64,000 nucleotides of DNA from an uncultured Pseudomonadota bacterium (GTDB lineage: Bacteria; Pseudomonadota; Alphaproteobacteria; Rs-D84), in the NCBI GenBank assembly GCA_902802115.1, contig CADCKW010000005.1, positions 1-64,000 of the forward strand, read 5' to 3'. A program made the position numbers and the translations under genes. This document shows, in pieces, positions 53,051 through 58,519 of this stretch. Below the pieces are notes generated by a model that was not told the origin of the DNA, ran no database searches, and saw only the letters and a program-made list of their open reading frames with translations. Each line of letters opens with the position of its first letter. The stretch's first letter is position 1.

Positions 53051-54196
53051 ATGAAAACCGCATATTTTACATTTTTAATAATCGCAGGTCTAATGCCCAA
53101 ATTTGCATTTGGCGATGTATTTATTCCAAACTATGCGGTGCCTTTTCCGCCGGTTCAAACACAAACCATGCCCCAACAAACACAATCCGGGCAAACTGGG
53201 GGAACATCATTATTGACCGCATCAAATTTTCCAAAAACATTTAACGATGTCGATTTTGCTGACCGTATTGCTGTCAAACGCGCTGCGTATGTTCCATTTC
53301 AAGACATGGACGCTTATAAAGGTCTGGTTGTTGCCGGCGAAGAACATTATACAGAACGCCAACTGGCCGAATTAGAAATTCAACGCCAACAAGATTCTTT
53401 AAGCTTGCCCAAAGCCGAATATTGTGACAAATACCCGACCGACGACGAATATTGCAGTCCTGATGAATCAACTTTGGCGGACACAATAAAAATCGGTGAT
53501 GCCCCGTCCCCAGATACAAAACAGCCATTTACCCCAGTTGGTTCTTTTTCAGGTCGCACAATTGGTGGCGGCGCGGTTATTGCACGCAATGATATTCACA
53601 ATGGTTCTTGTTATCCGGCGGCAAAAAGTAAAGTCTTTAAAAATATGGTTATGACAACCGGTCAATATGAAACCAGCCTGCCCCCATTTGAAAAGGCAAT
53701 GATTACTGTATTTCGCAAAGAAGGCAAATGTGGCGAAATCAAAGGCGACCCATGTGGATACACATGTTATGGCATTGGGTCTGGGCCAAATTGTATGGGA
53801 CACGATATTGATGTAAAAAACTTGACACGTGCAGGTGCCGAAAAATTATATCACGACAGAATGTGGGCAAAATATCACTTTGACAGATTGCCCGATGTTA
53901 TTGCCGGCGATATATTTTTGGCATCTATGGCCAGTGGCCCCTGCACCGCGATTAAACAATACCGCGGATTTTTAGGGTTAAGTAAAAATTGCAATATTGA
54001 TAACGATGTCGTTCGTGCAACTGAAAATTATACTGGCGATATTCATAATGATTGGCTGGACGTTCGTCAAAAATTCTTGATAGATGTTGCCGAACGCAAA
54101 TATCAAAACAGGGTTTTAAAAGGCTGGATGAACGCGATACAATTAAAACGCGAAAACGGCTGTCATGTAATTCCCACCGACCCATTATACAGATAA
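53051..54196 (+). CDS. secreted GH108-like N-acetylmuramidase
   Basis: A 381-residue protein with a signal peptide (MKTAYFTFLIIAGLMPKFAFG). Residues 25-190 are a Pro/Gln-rich and acidic spacer of unknown role. Residues ~205-380 resemble phage-type glycosyl hydrolase 108 muramidases: ITVFRKEGKCGEIKGDPCGYTCYGIG corresponds in part to the catalytic EGG...D.GG..T..GI segment with Glu224. LYHDRMWAKYHFDRLPD and a PG_binding_3-like end follow. Extra Cys suggest disulfides in the periplasm. It could remodel or lyse peptidoglycan, be a domesticated endolysin or serve as a VirB1-like enzyme for secretion. Confidence 0.7.
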   Translation: MKTAYFTFLIIAGLMPKFAFGDVFIPNYAVPFPPVQTQTMPQQTQSGQTGGTSLLTASNFPKTFNDVDFADRIAVKRAAYVPFQDMDAYKGLVVAGEEHYTERQLAELEIQRQQDSLSLPKAEYCDKYPTDDEYCSPDESTLADTIKIGDAPSPDTKQPFTPVGSFSGRTIGGGAVIARNDIHNGSCYPAAKSKVFKNMVMTTGQYETSLPPFEKAMITVFRKEGKCGEIKGDPCGYTCYGIGSGPNCMGHDIDVKNLTRAGAEKLYHDRMWAKYHFDRLPDVIAGDIFLASMASGPCTAIKQYRGFLGLSKNCNIDNDVVRATENYTGDIHNDWLDVRQKFLIDVAERKYQNRVLKGWMNAIQLKRENGCHVIPTDPLYR

Positions 54197-54258
54197 GAAA
54201 TCCATCTTGTTCATAAAAAACACTATTGCATTTATATTAAAATGCAAAGGAGTTTTTT

Positions 54259-54975
54259 ATGCGATGCAATCCAGAAAATAATAATTTTCCACTAATTGGT
54301 GATACCGCACCAAAATTCACCGCCCAGACGACAAACGGCACAGTCAATTTTCCAAACGATTACACAGGACATTGGGTTGTATTATTTTCGCACCCTATGG
54401 ATTTTACACCTGTTTGCACCACAGAATTTTTAGCATTTCAATCGGCTTTACCAGAATTTAAGAAAATAAATACAGAACTAATTGCATTATCAGTTGGCGC
54501 ATTACCATCACATTTGGCATGGTTTCGTTCAATATATACCGACATAAAATTTCAAAATAATAAAAACATAAAAATAACATTTCCTGCGATTGCCGACATG
54601 GATTTACATGTTTCAAAATTATATGGCATGATTCACCCGAATACCAGTGATACAAAAACTGTGCGTGCCGTATTCATAATTGACCCGAACAGTATTATCC
54701 GGACAATATTATATTATCCACAAACCACCGGTCGAAACATCAATGAAATTTTACGCATTGTGACCGCATTACAAACCACAGACGCATTTAATGTATCCAC
54801 ACCTGCCAATTGGACACCTGGCAAACCAGTTCTGGAATCATTACCACAAACGAATACAGACATGCAAAATCGCATCAATAACAAAGATACAAACATGCAA
54901 ACATGGTATCTAACCTTTCGCGATTTACCCGAATCCAAAATTACAAAAAAACTATCCAAACATACAAAAAATTAA
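54259..54975 (+). CDS. 1-Cys peroxiredoxin (Prx6 type)
   Basis: A 238-residue thiol peroxidase. The active-site motif is HPMDFTPVCTTE with the peroxidatic Cys near residue 54. The Prx6-like C-terminal arm is present (TPANWTPGKPVL). The only other Cys is residue 3, so no resolving Cys is visible. It reduces hydrogen peroxide or alkyl hydroperoxides, useful for a cell with an oxygen-sensitive PFOR. RBS AAAGGAG precedes ATG 54259. Confidence 0.92.
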   Translation: MRCNPENNNFPLIGDTAPKFTAQTTNGTVNFPNDYTGHWVVLFSHPMDFTPVCTTEFLAFQSALPEFKKINTELIALSVGALPSHLAWFRSIYTDIKFQNNKNIKITFPAIADMDLHVSKLYGMIHPNTSDTKTVRAVFIIDPNSIIRTILYYPQTTGRNINEILRIVTALQTTDAFNVSTPANWTPGKPVLESLPQTNTDMQNRINNKDTNMQTWYLTFRDLPESKITKKLSKHTKN

Positions 54976-55001
54976 CATCTATGTATGCATTATTAATCAT
55001 T

Positions 55002-55721
55002 TTATTTAATGACCTTGATATGTTTTATGGCACAACCTGGCTCTGAATACAACATATCACCGTTTTGAGATAATAATTCGGCACCACCAGACCCAAGACA
55101 CAATACAGATTTTTCTTGTGTTGTTTTGAAACATATTTTGATTGGCATATTCTTATCTATCGTGTCGGTTATATTATCACTATTTAATTGTTGGGTTGCC
55201 ATAATCAAATGCACACCGACAGCCCGCGCCTTTTGTACAATTATTTGTACAAAATTTTCAAACTCATCTTTGTTTAATGCTGTAAAATCCACCATTTCAT
55301 CTATGATTATCACGATGTACGGCATATCAGTATTTTTTTGATTATATTGTAATATCTCATATCTATTATTAATAAGTTCCACAATATCTTTAAAAACATT
55401 AAATGCGTATTTTGGTTCTGTTATCACCGGCATTAACAAATTATGATTGTGGCTATATTCATTAAAATCATACGCTTTGGGGTCAATAATTATGAATTTA
55501 CATTGTTCTGGTGTTAATTTATACGACAAAGATTCATAGATATTTTTTAATAAAACGGTTTTCCCAGTCCCCGTTCCACCACAAATCAACATATGTGGAA
55601 AGGTATGCAAATCTTTTATAACCGGCATTCCAGAAATATCAGTTCCCAATATAATTGGCAATACGGCTGTTGTTTTAGCAAATTGTTCTGATTTTAATAA
55701 ATTTTGAAATTTATCTGTCAT
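55002..55721 (-). CDS. minimal FtsK/SpoIIIE-like DNA-motor ATPase
   Basis: A 239-residue protein comprising only the RecA-like motor core. FPHMLICGGTGTGKTVLL carries Walker A (48-55), FIIIDPKAYDF the FtsK-type segment, YIVIIIDEMVDF Walker B (136-142) and QKARAVGVHLIMATQQ the next conserved helix. GGAELLSQNGDMLY is the FtsK end motif. The membrane domain, alpha domain and DNA-reading gamma domain of FtsK are all absent. It is the last gene of an operon overlapping by ATGA; the preceding membrane protein could supply its anchor. Confidence 0.85.
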   Translation of the reverse strand: MTDKFQNLLKSEQFAKTTAVLPIILGTDISGMPVIKDLHTFPHMLICGGTGTGKTVLLKNIYESLSYKLTPEQCKFIIIDPKAYDFNEYSHNHNLLMPVITEPKYAFNVFKDIVELINNRYEILQYNQKNTDMPYIVIIIDEMVDFTALNKDEFENFVQIIVQKARAVGVHLIMATQQLNSDNITDTIDKNMPIKICFKTTQEKSVLCLGSGGAELLSQNGDMLYSEPGCAIKHIKVIK

Positions 55722-56152
55722 TTTTTTCCCTTTGGTATAATCACACCTTCTTTTAATGCGGCTTTGATAACCCTGTCTTTTGATTCTTGATATACATCGT
55801 GAATAGTATATTTTGGTGATAAAGTCCCAGGATTGAATATTACGCGAACAACATCTTTGGCGACATACCTACAGGGTTCAACAACGTAAAATTCTTCGTT
55901 GTCAGCACCTTGATATCTTAGTTTCATATCATAGACACATTCGTCCATAGCAATAGAAAAAACCTGACGTTCTTCTTCAGAATAATCGTCAAGTGTTCGT
56001 GGTCCGTTATCGAAATTTGACAACAAAACAGTGTCATTATCAATGTTTTTACACCGATTATTTACAATATATGAATCAATCAGCCAAAACAGACCACAAA
56101 ACACAACGATTTCGATTAAAAATGTGAAAATATCGCGTTTTGAAATTTTCAT
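55718..56152 (-). CDS. single-pass membrane protein of the FtsK-like operon
   Basis: A 144-residue protein. A membrane helix covers residues ~9-30. The remainder is a soluble domain with three Cys and a conserved-looking acidic core (DYSEEERQVFSIAMDECVYD). No known family is recognised. It overlaps both neighbours by 4 nt and is thus translated together with the glycosylase-like and the FtsK-like protein, pointing to a joint function. Confidence 0.7.
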   Translation of the reverse strand: MKISKRDIFTFLIEIVVFCGLFWLIDSYIVNNRCKNIDNDTVLLSNFDNGPRTLDDYSEEERQVFSIAMDECVYDMKLRYQGADNEEFYVVEPCRYVAKDVVRVIFNPGTLSPKYTIHDVYQESKDRVIKAALKEGVIIPKGKK

Positions 56153-56829
56153 TTTTTAGCCTTTTTCTTTTCAGAGACAATTTCAATCAATCCATTACTT
56201 GCCGCCTTAAACAACACCGCGTCAATATAACCACGCGGAAAACCGGTTTCTTTGATTAAATGGTTGAACATGTCGTCACACGCTTGTTTGATTTCCGGTT
56301 GTAAATTTGCATTGTTTTCACGTAAATTTGGGTTTCCGCTATATACGATTCCAAGGCGTTGAACCCAAATATCGTATTTAACCACGTTTTCCCCAAGATT
56401 TCGCGCCAAATGGTCTTTGGTTATGTTTCCAAGATTTGGTAATTTTTTTAAAAAATTTAACTTTTCAGCCAATGTTTCGCATTTATAATAATCCGCACAA
56501 TATTTATCACGGTTATTCCAAATTTCCATGATGGCGTTTATTTTTGTGTCTCTGTTAAATATCTGTAATAAATCGTTTCTTGTGTGTTTTTGTGACAACT
56601 TTTCCATTATTTTTTGATGACATTGTTTTGCCGTTCTTTGTCTGAAACCGCTAGCTAATATGGAATATGCGGCACATGAAGCAAATTCGTCAGGACTGAC
56701 TTTAAATTTATCGTCTTTTATACGTTTCAAAATTTCATCAAATGAATATAAATCTGAATCTAAACCAGTATCACGCAACGTTTTATCAAGATTCAAAAAC
56801 CACGATTTTGAAAACATTTTTTCAGTCAT
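56149..56829 (-). CDS. HhH-GPD-like DNA glycosylase
   Basis: A 226-residue helical protein. LPNLGNITKDHLARNLG (130-146) is a helix-hairpin-helix, followed by VVKYDIWVQRL, where Asp153 takes the position of the catalytic Asp in HhH-GPD glycosylases. The N-terminal segment FASCAAYSILASGFRQRTAKQC resembles the first helices of that fold. There is no FeS-cluster Cys set. It may excise damaged or modified bases. RBS AAAGGAGT lies 7 nt ahead of the start. First long gene of the ATGA-linked operon. Confidence 0.7.
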   Translation of the reverse strand: MTEKMFSKSWFLNLDKTLRDTGLDSDLYSFDEILKRIKDDKFKVSPDEFASCAAYSILASGFRQRTAKQCHQKIMEKLSQKHTRNDLLQIFNRDTKINAIMEIWNNRDKYCADYYKCETLAEKLNFLKKLPNLGNITKDHLARNLGENVVKYDIWVQRLGIVYSGNPNLRENNANLQPEIKQACDDMFNHLIKETGFPRGYIDAVLFKAASNGLIEIVSEKKKAKK

Positions 56830-56882
56830 AATTATTACTCCTTTGTGTTAAATATTGTTTGAAACTGAATTTGGGCACCTGT

Positions 56883-57032
56883 TTAATTATCGTATGATAC
56901 AACACGACCATAACTGGCGCAATTGCTTTCTTCCAATTTGTGTAATTGTGCCTTGGCGGCATCATACGAAAAATAGATTTCTGGTAATACACATCCATTA
57001 AATATAATTTTCCATGCTGAACAAGTTGCCAT
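56883..57032 (-). CDS. 49-residue small protein upstream of the glycosylase gene
   Basis: ATG at 57032 with a strong RBS (AAAGGAGTAAAAG) encodes MATCSAWKIIFNGCVLPEIY and continues to TAA at 56883. It has three Cys and the helix YDAAKAQLHKLEES. The same RBS type precedes the next gene 53 nt on, so it is likely part of the operon. Unknown function; too short for family assignment. Confidence 0.6.
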   Translation of the reverse strand: MATCSAWKIIFNGCVLPEIYFSYDAAKAQLHKLEESNCASYGRVVSYDN

Positions 57033-57277
57033 CTTTTACTCCTTTGGTTTATTTGTTCTTCATAAAGCAATATAAACACACAGCTGGACAAAAATGGTCC
57101 ATTTTTTGTGAAAAGCATATTTTTATTTTGGAAGTTTGAATTTCGTGGTCGTGCTTATCTCGCAGTTTGCGAACCATTGATTACAATGATTTGATTGCCG
57201 TCGGACAAGATATTGAAAATTTTAAAGATAAAAACGCACCAATACCGTTATGAATCCAAAATCATATTTGTACTATA

Positions 57278-57471
57278 TTAACGTTTCTTGGATATTGCTT
57301 CTGTGATTGCAATTAGTGCATCAAATTCTTTTAATTTGTTACCTGTTTCAACAGCTTGTTCCAGTTGCAATATTTTTGCATTTAGTTGTTTTACACCAGG
57401 GGCATTTTTTTACTTGGGTCAAATAAATCTAAAAATTCATCGTCAATTTGTGCTTGAACACCGCTACACAT
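57278..57471 (-). pseudogene. small gene with a frameshift in an A7 run
   Basis: ATG 57471 follows AAAAAAGGAG and a good promoter. The first frame stops after 26 residues (57391). One extra A in the run of seven (57405-57411) would restore a ~65-residue protein: MCSGVQAQIDDEFLDLFDPS, then a coiled-coil part with LNAKILQLEQAVETGNKL, ending KKR at 57278. It is either a true pseudogene, programmed slippage or a sequencing error in the homopolymer. Confidence 0.55.
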
Positions 57472-57500
57472 ATAAAACTCCTTTTTTATTATGTTTCTTG

Positions 57501-57528
57501 AGTATAGTAAAAAATATTTTTTTGTCAA
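57501..57528 (-). promoter_or_regulatory. promoter heading the FtsK-like island operon
   Basis: On the minus strand consensus TTGACA (57528-57523), 16-bp spacer, TATACT (57506-57501), 29 nt ahead of ATG 57471. Confidence 0.7.
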
Positions 57529-57591
57529 GTATTTTGCCAAACAATTCAAATGCTTCGTTTCAGACTTTCATTAAAGAAACCATAAAAATTT

Positions 57592-57634
57592 GTCGTTTGA
57601 ATCCGTGAGTCCCAAACACAAAATTAAAACCGCC
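57592..57634. repeat. 43-bp direct repeat, tRNA-3'-end-like, copy 1
   Basis: It contains GTTTGAATCCGTGAGTCCCA, like the T-arm and 3' end of a tRNA, and runs into a terminator stem. A nearly identical copy lies at 58376-58418 near tRNA-Pro, where GTTCGAATCC is kept. Confidence 0.6.
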
Positions 57635-57652
57635 TTTAATGGCGGTTTTAAT
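57626..57652. terminator. terminator behind the phosphorylase-like gene
   Basis: AAAACCGCC/GGCGGTTTT stem with a six-base loop; T-rich on the right, A-rich on the left. It abuts the stop codon at 57653. Confidence 0.8.
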
Positions 57653-58168
57653 TTACTTACCATCACCAATCAAATCAAACAATATTGAATTGGCTTTTAA
57701 CCACGCCTTTTTAATATCAACCTGTTTATATTCATGATAATTCAGGTTATCAGACACCACCTTGACCGACCTGATCTTTGGGAAAAATGTTGCCAATGTA
57801 TAAAGTTCCATATCAAATACCCCAGTATGCTTTGTACTTTCCACAAAATTGAGTGCAGAATAACATTTTATCTTTGATTCTTTATCCAATTTAATCGTTG
57901 GTTCTTTGACTGTATGCGATGCACCCTCACGCGCGACCGAACCAACCGTCACAACAGTTCCAATCGGGAATTCATTTGAACCGACATATCCAACATTGAA
58001 AAATTTATCATTTTTATTAAATTCACCATTTAACAACAATTTTGACAAAGTTTTTATTGTTGCGGTTTCGCCCCACCCCAACAGAATAATTTTAACATTA
58101 TCCTGTAAAGATTTTGGGATTTTAATATTATCTGCCTCTTGTTTATCGGCAATCAAAATATAATTCAT
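57653..58168 (-). CDS. nucleoside phosphorylase-like protein, short
   Basis: A 171-residue protein; ATG 58168 follows AGGAG. FNVGYVGSNEFPIGTVVTVG and, further on, FDMELYTLATFF with VVSDNLN resemble the substrate and catalytic (D-M-E, SDN) segments of the purine nucleoside phosphorylase / MTA-SAH nucleosidase fold. Length is below the usual ~230 residues and the early phosphate/ribose loops are reduced. It may be a specialised or decaying copy. It sits in the tRNA-Pro island. Confidence 0.6.
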   Translation of the reverse strand: MNYILIADKQEADNIKIPKSLQDNVKIILLGWGETATIKTLSKLLLNGEFNKNDKFFNVGYVGSNEFPIGTVVTVGSVAREGASHTVKEPTIKLDKESKIKCYSALNFVESTKHTGVFDMELYTLATFFPKIRSVKVVSDNLNYHEYKQVDIKKAWLKANSILFDLIGDGK

Positions 58169-58246: not shown

Positions 58247-58418
58247 TCTGGTCGGGGCGACTATGAGTAAATGAGCCTAGTGATAACGACGGCGAATTGT
58301 CACGAATGCCCCGCAGTCGTGACACACCCTGTGTGACACGACGAGGGAAACGTTCGAACCATGGCAAATTCATTTGCCGTTCGAATCCGTGAGTCCCAAA
58401 CACAAAATTAAAACCGCC
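58247..58418. repeat. tRNA-Pro end remnants and hairpin-rich stretch
   Basis: TGGTCGGGGCGA (58247-58258) copies the CCA-bearing end of tRNA-Pro (58443-58454). GTCACGA/TCGTGAC and GTCGTG-ACACA/TGTGT-GACACGAC hairpins follow at 58292-58352, then GGCAAAT/ATTTGCC (58363-58378). Copy 2 of the 43-bp repeat is at 58376-58418. No gene. This looks like scar tissue of integration events. Confidence 0.5.
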
Positions 58419-58442
58419 GCATTTGCGACGGTTTGAATTTCG

Positions 58443-58519
58443 TGGTCGGGGCGAAAGGATTCGAACCTTCGACACCTTGGTCCCAAACCAAGTACTCTAC
58501 CAGACTGAGCTACGCCCCG
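58443..58519 (-). tRNA. tRNA-Pro (anticodon TGG)
   Basis: Reading the minus strand: acceptor CGGGGCG (58519-58513) pairs with CGCCCCG, discriminator A and encoded CCA (58445-58443). The anticodon arm is CTTGG-TTTGGGA-CCAAG with anticodon TGG. The T-arm has GGTTCGAATCC. All arms pair. Its 3' end is duplicated in fragments to the left, so it seems to be an integration site. Confidence 0.95.

Follow-up and report, generated by a model that had tools for sequence, protein, structure and literature searches.

The window, by which we mean the whole stretch of 64,000 nucleotides analysed here, comes from a genome (G000) of 950 kb in 7 contigs, whose relatives are alphaproteobacterial MAGs, one of them from horse feces. 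Rs-D84 is described as small-genome gut Alphaproteobacteria in the available part of PMC12306168. On the minus strand lie, in this order, a 49-aa ORF, an HhH gene, a membrane-protein gene and an FtsK gene, the last three being coupled via two ATGA overlaps. The features of the locus are as follows:

54979-57587, no strand: cassette-bearing segment of ~2.6 kb, absent from the relative G172, where its flanks are adjacent
55002-55721, minus strand: FtsK/SpoIIIE minimal motor, 239 aa, RecA-like core only
55718-56152, minus strand: membrane protein, 144 aa, predicted single-pass, family not assigned by any profile
56149-56829, minus strand: putative HhH-type DNA glycosylase paralogue, 226 aa, Asp153 invariant
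56883-57032, minus strand: 49-aa ORF, outside the conserved cassette; member of a 56-aa family, shortened by a stop
57085-57101, no strand: palindrome TGGAC-N7-GTCCA, TGGACAAAAATGGTCCA, candidate operator common to AAA/WYL modules
57134-57151, minus strand: att-like 18-nt copy of the tRNA-Pro 3' end, exact repeat
57501-57528, minus strand: sigma-70-like promoter TTGACA-16-TATACT, 11/12 positions matching
57588-57634, no strand: 47-nt direct repeat, copy 1
58372-58418, no strand: 47-nt direct repeat, copy 2, 96%
58431-58448, minus strand: source copy of the att-like 18-mer, at the 3' end of tRNA-Pro, exact repeat
58443-58519, minus strand: intact tRNA-Pro(TGG) (ARAGORN, Rfam tRNA)

Both overlaps are exactly 4 nt long, as a sequence-only reading of this DNA had claimed, and lie at 56149-56152 (HhH and membrane protein) and 55718-55721 (membrane protein and FtsK). 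The DNA match to the relative G024 covers 55001-56860 at 77%, which is exactly the three genes plus the HhH ribosome site and leaves the 49-aa gene outside. Between the window and G024, dN/dS (Nei-Gojobori) was 0.12 for the HhH gene, a rough value because dS there is 1.70, 0.17 for the membrane-protein gene (dS 0.55) and 0.19 for FtsK; across the cassette comparisons it ranged from 0.06 to 0.20, and for the membrane protein against the window copy from 0.16 to 0.19. The three cassette genes are thus real genes under purifying selection.

The 49-residue protein had been placed at the head of the operon with a strong ribosome-binding site. The site is indeed there (AAAGGAG), but the ORF ends 53 nt before the HhH gene without an ATGA link and is absent from the homologous unit in relatives. 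It is 78% identical to L077:17404-17574, and in G173 and G172 its 56-aa relatives stand after an AAA+ gene; the homologue at L155:1941-2111 likewise comes after an AAA gene. The consensus promoter proposed at 57501 is a good match to the consensus, but promoter-like sites are no commoner in the region than in shuffled sequence (20 versus 18.1, sd 5.6), and it lies ~470 nt upstream, with a frameshifted ORF and the att-like repeat in between. The palindrome at 57085-57101 is a candidate for a better-placed control site. Its pattern occurs 7 times in the 542,749 bases of the 38 loci, where mononucleotide shuffles average 0.85, and five of the six sites other than that of the window are just upstream of an AAA gene (L073, L083, L135, L137, L155). 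It is a candidate operator of a WYL protein. The window itself showed no WYL gene. It seems that an AAA module is represented in the window by its control region and its last gene, with the HhH cassette now standing behind them.

The scars of tRNA-Pro mentioned in the sequence-only reading are confirmed by the 18-nt exact copy of the tRNA 3' end: the 18-mer has two exact matches in the window, and the chance expectation with up to 3 mismatches is 0.11. In G172 the site is empty, as the left flank (window 53900-54978, 96%) directly joins sequence corresponding to 57577-57654 (86%), and this joined right-flank sequence also occurs at the tRNA-Pro 3' side. Among the 10 genomes in which the flanks were checked, both were found together in G172 only, the other nine being judged from the match table alone. 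G172 carries a small insertion of its own at the tRNA-Pro 3' end (L154, G172:C9:8493-8700), so this site is in repeated use. The 47-nt direct repeats bound a second segment, also absent from G172, with a gene for a 171-aa protein (window 57653-58168) of no known family and with a weak NCBIfam nucleosidase match (0.03).

At E<=1e-86, four of the order's 201 genomes have the accessory HhH gene: G000, G024, G047 and G181. In G024 the order is HhH, membrane protein and FtsK, with overlaps as in the window; in G047 a GcrA-FtsK fusion stands upstream, followed by HhH and the membrane protein; G181 resembles G047, with FtsK, HhH and an ATGA-linked membrane protein, and has a resolvase near the cassette. 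Rather than occurring only as unlinked genes, the homologues therefore keep together: each of the four accessory HhH copies is accompanied by FtsK and by a membrane protein with an ATGA link, whichever of the two gene orders it has. Between G024 and G047 the accessory HhH proteins are 94.7% identical, compared to 63.4% for core HhH and 64.8% for core FtsK, and since the accessory copy is far closer than the core genes, the cassette has been transferred between species. The unit of HhH, membrane protein and FtsK is a horizontally moving cassette, and the accessory function proposed earlier agrees with its rarity, its linkage and the empty site in G172.

The PADLOC OGG model matches the window HhH protein at 2.2e-14 and also all 10 members of the wider alignment. 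Alignment with Nth-like PF00730 proteins (hhalign, probability 86.7, E 4.4e-6) puts LPNLGNIT of the HhH protein on LPGIGQKT of Nth and Asp153 on the Nth aspartate, and this aspartate is invariant in the ten aligned members. No match to Pfam PF00730 above the cut-off or to NCBIfam was obtained for the protein, and the single PF00730 match in G000 is a different gene. Structure prediction, for which 3 and 4 sequences were used for the HhH and membrane proteins, gave for HhH an AlphaFold model with a pLDDT of 48.7, too low in quality to judge the fold, and no significant Foldseek match. The glycosylase assignment of the sequence-only reading is thus supported by sequence profiles and not by structure. 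A lysine at the lyase position is the mark of bifunctional HhH-GPD glycosylases. Here that position is Ile136 (10/10), and a simple monofunctional glycosylase that would act without lyase activity is predicted. The K249-D268 pair of OGG1 is mentioned in the accessible text of PMC13160076.

A second HhH copy in G000 (C1:195506) is 56% identical over the matched part and overlaps ung, and the window protein is a paralogue of a housekeeping HhH gene in the same genome. The core gene is widespread, with at least one HhH match in 95 of 147 relatives, and ung adjoins it in all 27 other core loci checked. In the HhH tree the accessory copies form a single branch (100/100) apart from 28 core copies. 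No HhH relatives were found among the 2.9 million contigs of IMG/VR, and signs of an arms race with viruses are thus lacking; a single weak phage match (8e-3) was set aside. Plasmid relatives amount to 12 records with 25-30% identity, "hypothetical" wherever annotated.

The 144-aa membrane protein matched nothing in Pfam at E<=1 or in NCBIfam and PADLOC, and in PHROG gave weak matches only (E>=0.21). It has one N-terminal hydrophobic helix, residues 5-33 in the AlphaFold model (pLDDT 66.5, no significant Foldseek match). Judging from the basic N-terminus, its soluble part is probably periplasmic, which would make a direct complex with cytosolic partners harder. Homologues among the 201 genomes are strong in four and weak in two. 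The match in G181 is weak (4.6e-4), yet this is a genuine fourth cassette with a strongly diverged copy. The weak match in G076 (1.7e-4), with flanks free of an FtsK-like ORF, was rejected, and that in G065 (0.00198) was left out of the homologue count. A close relative in G212 (L090) has no HhH gene upstream, and its contig stops 158 nt downstream, where FtsK cannot be judged. Relatives were found neither in the same 2.9 million IMG/VR contigs nor in plasmids.

The FtsK protein matches Pfam FtsK_SpoIIIE at 3.8e-36. Residues 4-232 of its 239 align, in two stretches, with residues 177-442 of the solved FtsK 2iuu, and as the alignment is confined to the motor part, the alpha and gamma domains are missing, in line with the stand-alone core without gamma described earlier. 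Both Walker motifs are preserved, A as GGTGTGKT and B as IVIIIDE. Of the solved structures a cellular FtsK is closest; the protein also matches the coupling protein 6o1w, and TraB weakly. Short FtsK proteins radiate in the genus separately from core FtsK (long branches, support 77). Walker A is kept in 17 and lost in 7 of 24 mini-FtsKs, which suggests that motor action is not always required. The count was made after removal of an ankyrin protein and a GcrA-like protein that single-linkage clustering of FtsK neighbours had drawn in, and it excludes the truncated G075C71_007 and the later-fetched UDG-linked copies L121, L123, L124 and L125. Five of the seven without Walker A adjoin a UDG enzyme; three further UDG-linked FtsKs retain it.

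The pairing of glycosylase and FtsK is not unique to this cassette but recurs with a second, unrelated glycosylase family. Ten of the 201 genomes contain an accessory UDG-superfamily gene, at 11 loci in all, and an FtsK-like ORF lies within its ~1.5-kb flanks at 9 of these loci, being missing in L105 and L122; the same search gave 0/28 at core HhH/ung loci and 0/3 at nth loci. The 11 loci are related to each other, and the family was picked for its nearness to FtsK in G046 and G151, two loci that are not independent support; excluding them, the neighbour is present at 7 of 9. By Pfam matches, the fusion partners of the UDG domain are a DUF2779/Cas4-like nuclease, a WYL regulator and a NUDIX hydrolase domain (L137:3235-5169, L141:6127-7575 and L122:976-1992, respectively). 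The modules in G046, G201, G191 and G209 also have, in part, a dual AAA+ gene (IetA matches), DUF2779 and a WYL gene, and the neighbours include type III restriction and AbiLi/ii in G046, AbiLi/ii and a type IIG enzyme in G201, and GmrSD in G209. A recurring module can be recognised, with a WYL regulator, a dual AAA+ (IetA-like) protein, a DUF2779 nuclease, a UDG-superfamily glycosylase and an FtsK-like protein, the parts varying by locus and often lying beside restriction or AbiL genes:

L135:2773-8836
L137:2466-7294
L136:6302-9163
L073:7895-14051
L078:9497-12995

The window HhH protein is of the same glycosylase-like family as PADLOC OGG (PDLC00910), which is associated with type IV CBASS. 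No CBASS cyclase model matched the scanned island proteins, in which OGG was the sole clear match; a TRIP13 match (0.024) was dismissed as a weak P-loop match to FtsK. Like the Brig1 and Brig3 antiviral glycosylases (PMC11078745, PMC13160076; available parts), which stand in defence loci, the window enzyme is an accessory DNA glycosylase, and Brig3 sits with a helper in a short overlapping operon (PMC13160076). Brig1 belongs to the UDG superfamily, whereas the window enzyme has an HhH-type profile match, pointing away from the UDG-superfamily fold; the accessible text of the two papers has no mention of an FtsK partner. Restriction glycosylases of the R.PabI type, which excise adenine inside their own recognition sequence (PMC10273834, available part), use base excision as restriction but are of a different superfamily, and HhH and FtsK are not mentioned in that portion of the paper.

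HerA/FtsK capture systems (DndH and relatives) took their motors from various sources including cellular FtsK, occur in mobile, conflict-type neighbourhoods and carry active nuclease and wHTH, Orc/CDC6 or PglZ partners (PMC10853773, PMC12839542; accessible parts). The window cassette resembles them in having a captured FtsK motor in an accessory, mobile locus and differs in pairing the motor with a glycosylase. No nuclease family was detected in the four window proteins by profile searches, the DUF2779/Cas4-like nuclease being confined to the sister UDG module, and the words "glycosylase" and "uracil" are absent from the available text of PMC12839542, as is "glycosylase" from that of PMC10853773. 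With cellular FtsK the window motor shares the same domain (35-52% identity to genus core FtsK over two matched parts), but it has no membrane, alpha or gamma domain. That this is not a known system, as the sequence-only reading put it, is consistent with our search: each half has precedent, in antiviral glycosylases and in HerA/FtsK capture, and in the literature searched, judged partly by titles and abstract starts, we found no defence pairing between a DNA glycosylase and either FtsK or HerA.

Our preferred reading, to which we give a probability of about 0.45, is that the cassette is a mobile three-gene module of anti-invader type, made of a glycosylase, a captured FtsK motor and a membrane protein. 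The duplicated and diverged HhH glycosylase would create abasic sites in target DNA by cutting out a particular base, damaged or modified; the FtsK motor would scan or stall that DNA by loading on it or pumping it; the membrane protein may tether the activity at the inner membrane, the entry point of phage or conjugative DNA; and host AP endonucleases would supply the strand breaks. We infer these biochemical steps, the target and the defence role. Linkage across two gene orders, horizontal spread, the empty site in G172, purifying selection within the cassette, the UDG-FtsK parallel with its domain fusions and defence-gene neighbours, and the published precedents argue for the anti-invader reading; the missing nuclease, the probably periplasmic soluble part of the membrane protein, the membrane-protein homologue without HhH upstream in G212, the Walker A losses, the poor HhH model and the lack of relatives in IMG/VR argue against it. 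Next to the window cassette itself, no gene of a known defence system was identified. Of the earlier alternatives, defence or the handling of an integrated element, defence by this cassette is suggested by analogy with UDG and FtsK in defence islands near AbiL, restriction and GmrSD genes.

The handling of an element has the att-like repeats at tRNA-Pro and the resolvase near the G181 copy in its favour. FtsK could then be a coupling protein or a TraB/TcpA-type pump serving transfer or upkeep of the integrated element along with the other genes, as its matches to 6o1w and TraB might suggest, but no relaxase, secretion gene or integrase was found among the scanned window island proteins and cellular FtsK is the closest solved relative, which makes this improbable. 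Accessory DNA repair, with HhH adding to or widening base excision repair, FtsK and the membrane protein aiding replication or segregation of damaged DNA and no role in defence, would fit the paralogue adjoining ung, the retained aspartate and a small genome poor in such enzymes. We consider it unlikely, as the patchy, horizontally moving distribution, the placement in an island and the parallel UDG-FtsK pairing beside restriction genes speak against it. The genes may also be unrelated cassettes gathered in a tRNA hotspot and co-transcribed without joint function. The locus is a mosaic in which the 49-aa gene, a broken 26-aa ORF and the 171-aa gene are of separate origins, one genome has the membrane protein without HhH, and dS differs between the HhH and membrane-protein genes, but FtsK and the membrane protein are kept in every accessory HhH copy despite the changed gene order, and chance stacking seems decidedly improbable.

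More broadly, and as a tentative proposal that we rate somewhat short of even, the anti-invader reading could extend to an undescribed class in which a stripped FtsK motor, or its dead descendant, is combined with an exchangeable HhH or UDG glycosylase. The UDG version would add the DUF2779 nuclease, the IetA-like AAA+ protein and a WYL switch at the TGGAC-N7-GTCCA operator, and the window cassette would represent the version with HhH and a tie to the membrane. Glycosylases with antiviral activity were discovered only recently, and interception of invading DNA has been proposed as a role of FtsK-type pumps; if the reading is true, the cassette offers a compact system for asking whether DNA translocation and base excision can be linked. 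Within a single genus of near-minimal gut bacteria, glycosylase and FtsK have been brought together two or more times, involving distinct glycosylase families.

A separate puzzle is why FtsK partners have lost their ATP site repeatedly. FtsK-like proteins without a working Walker A whose open frames are kept lie at:

L106:3-587
L107:1982-2620
L108:1936-3344
L078:9497-10744
L081:9115-10113
L085:9421-10158

Other FtsK-like proteins were observed in these genomes. The window genome has a second stand-alone mini-FtsK (L071:9868-10647, C2) beside ssb, with no glycosylase recognised nearby, which is found in G172 too. At L069:8105-9637 a GcrA-like domain and an FtsK motor form one protein (Pfam GcrA 5.8e-6, FtsK_SpoIIIE 5e-11), and the FtsK-like motors at L075:7286-8707 and L080:3959-5374 carry C-terminal ankyrin-like repeats, as seen by eye in the alignment.
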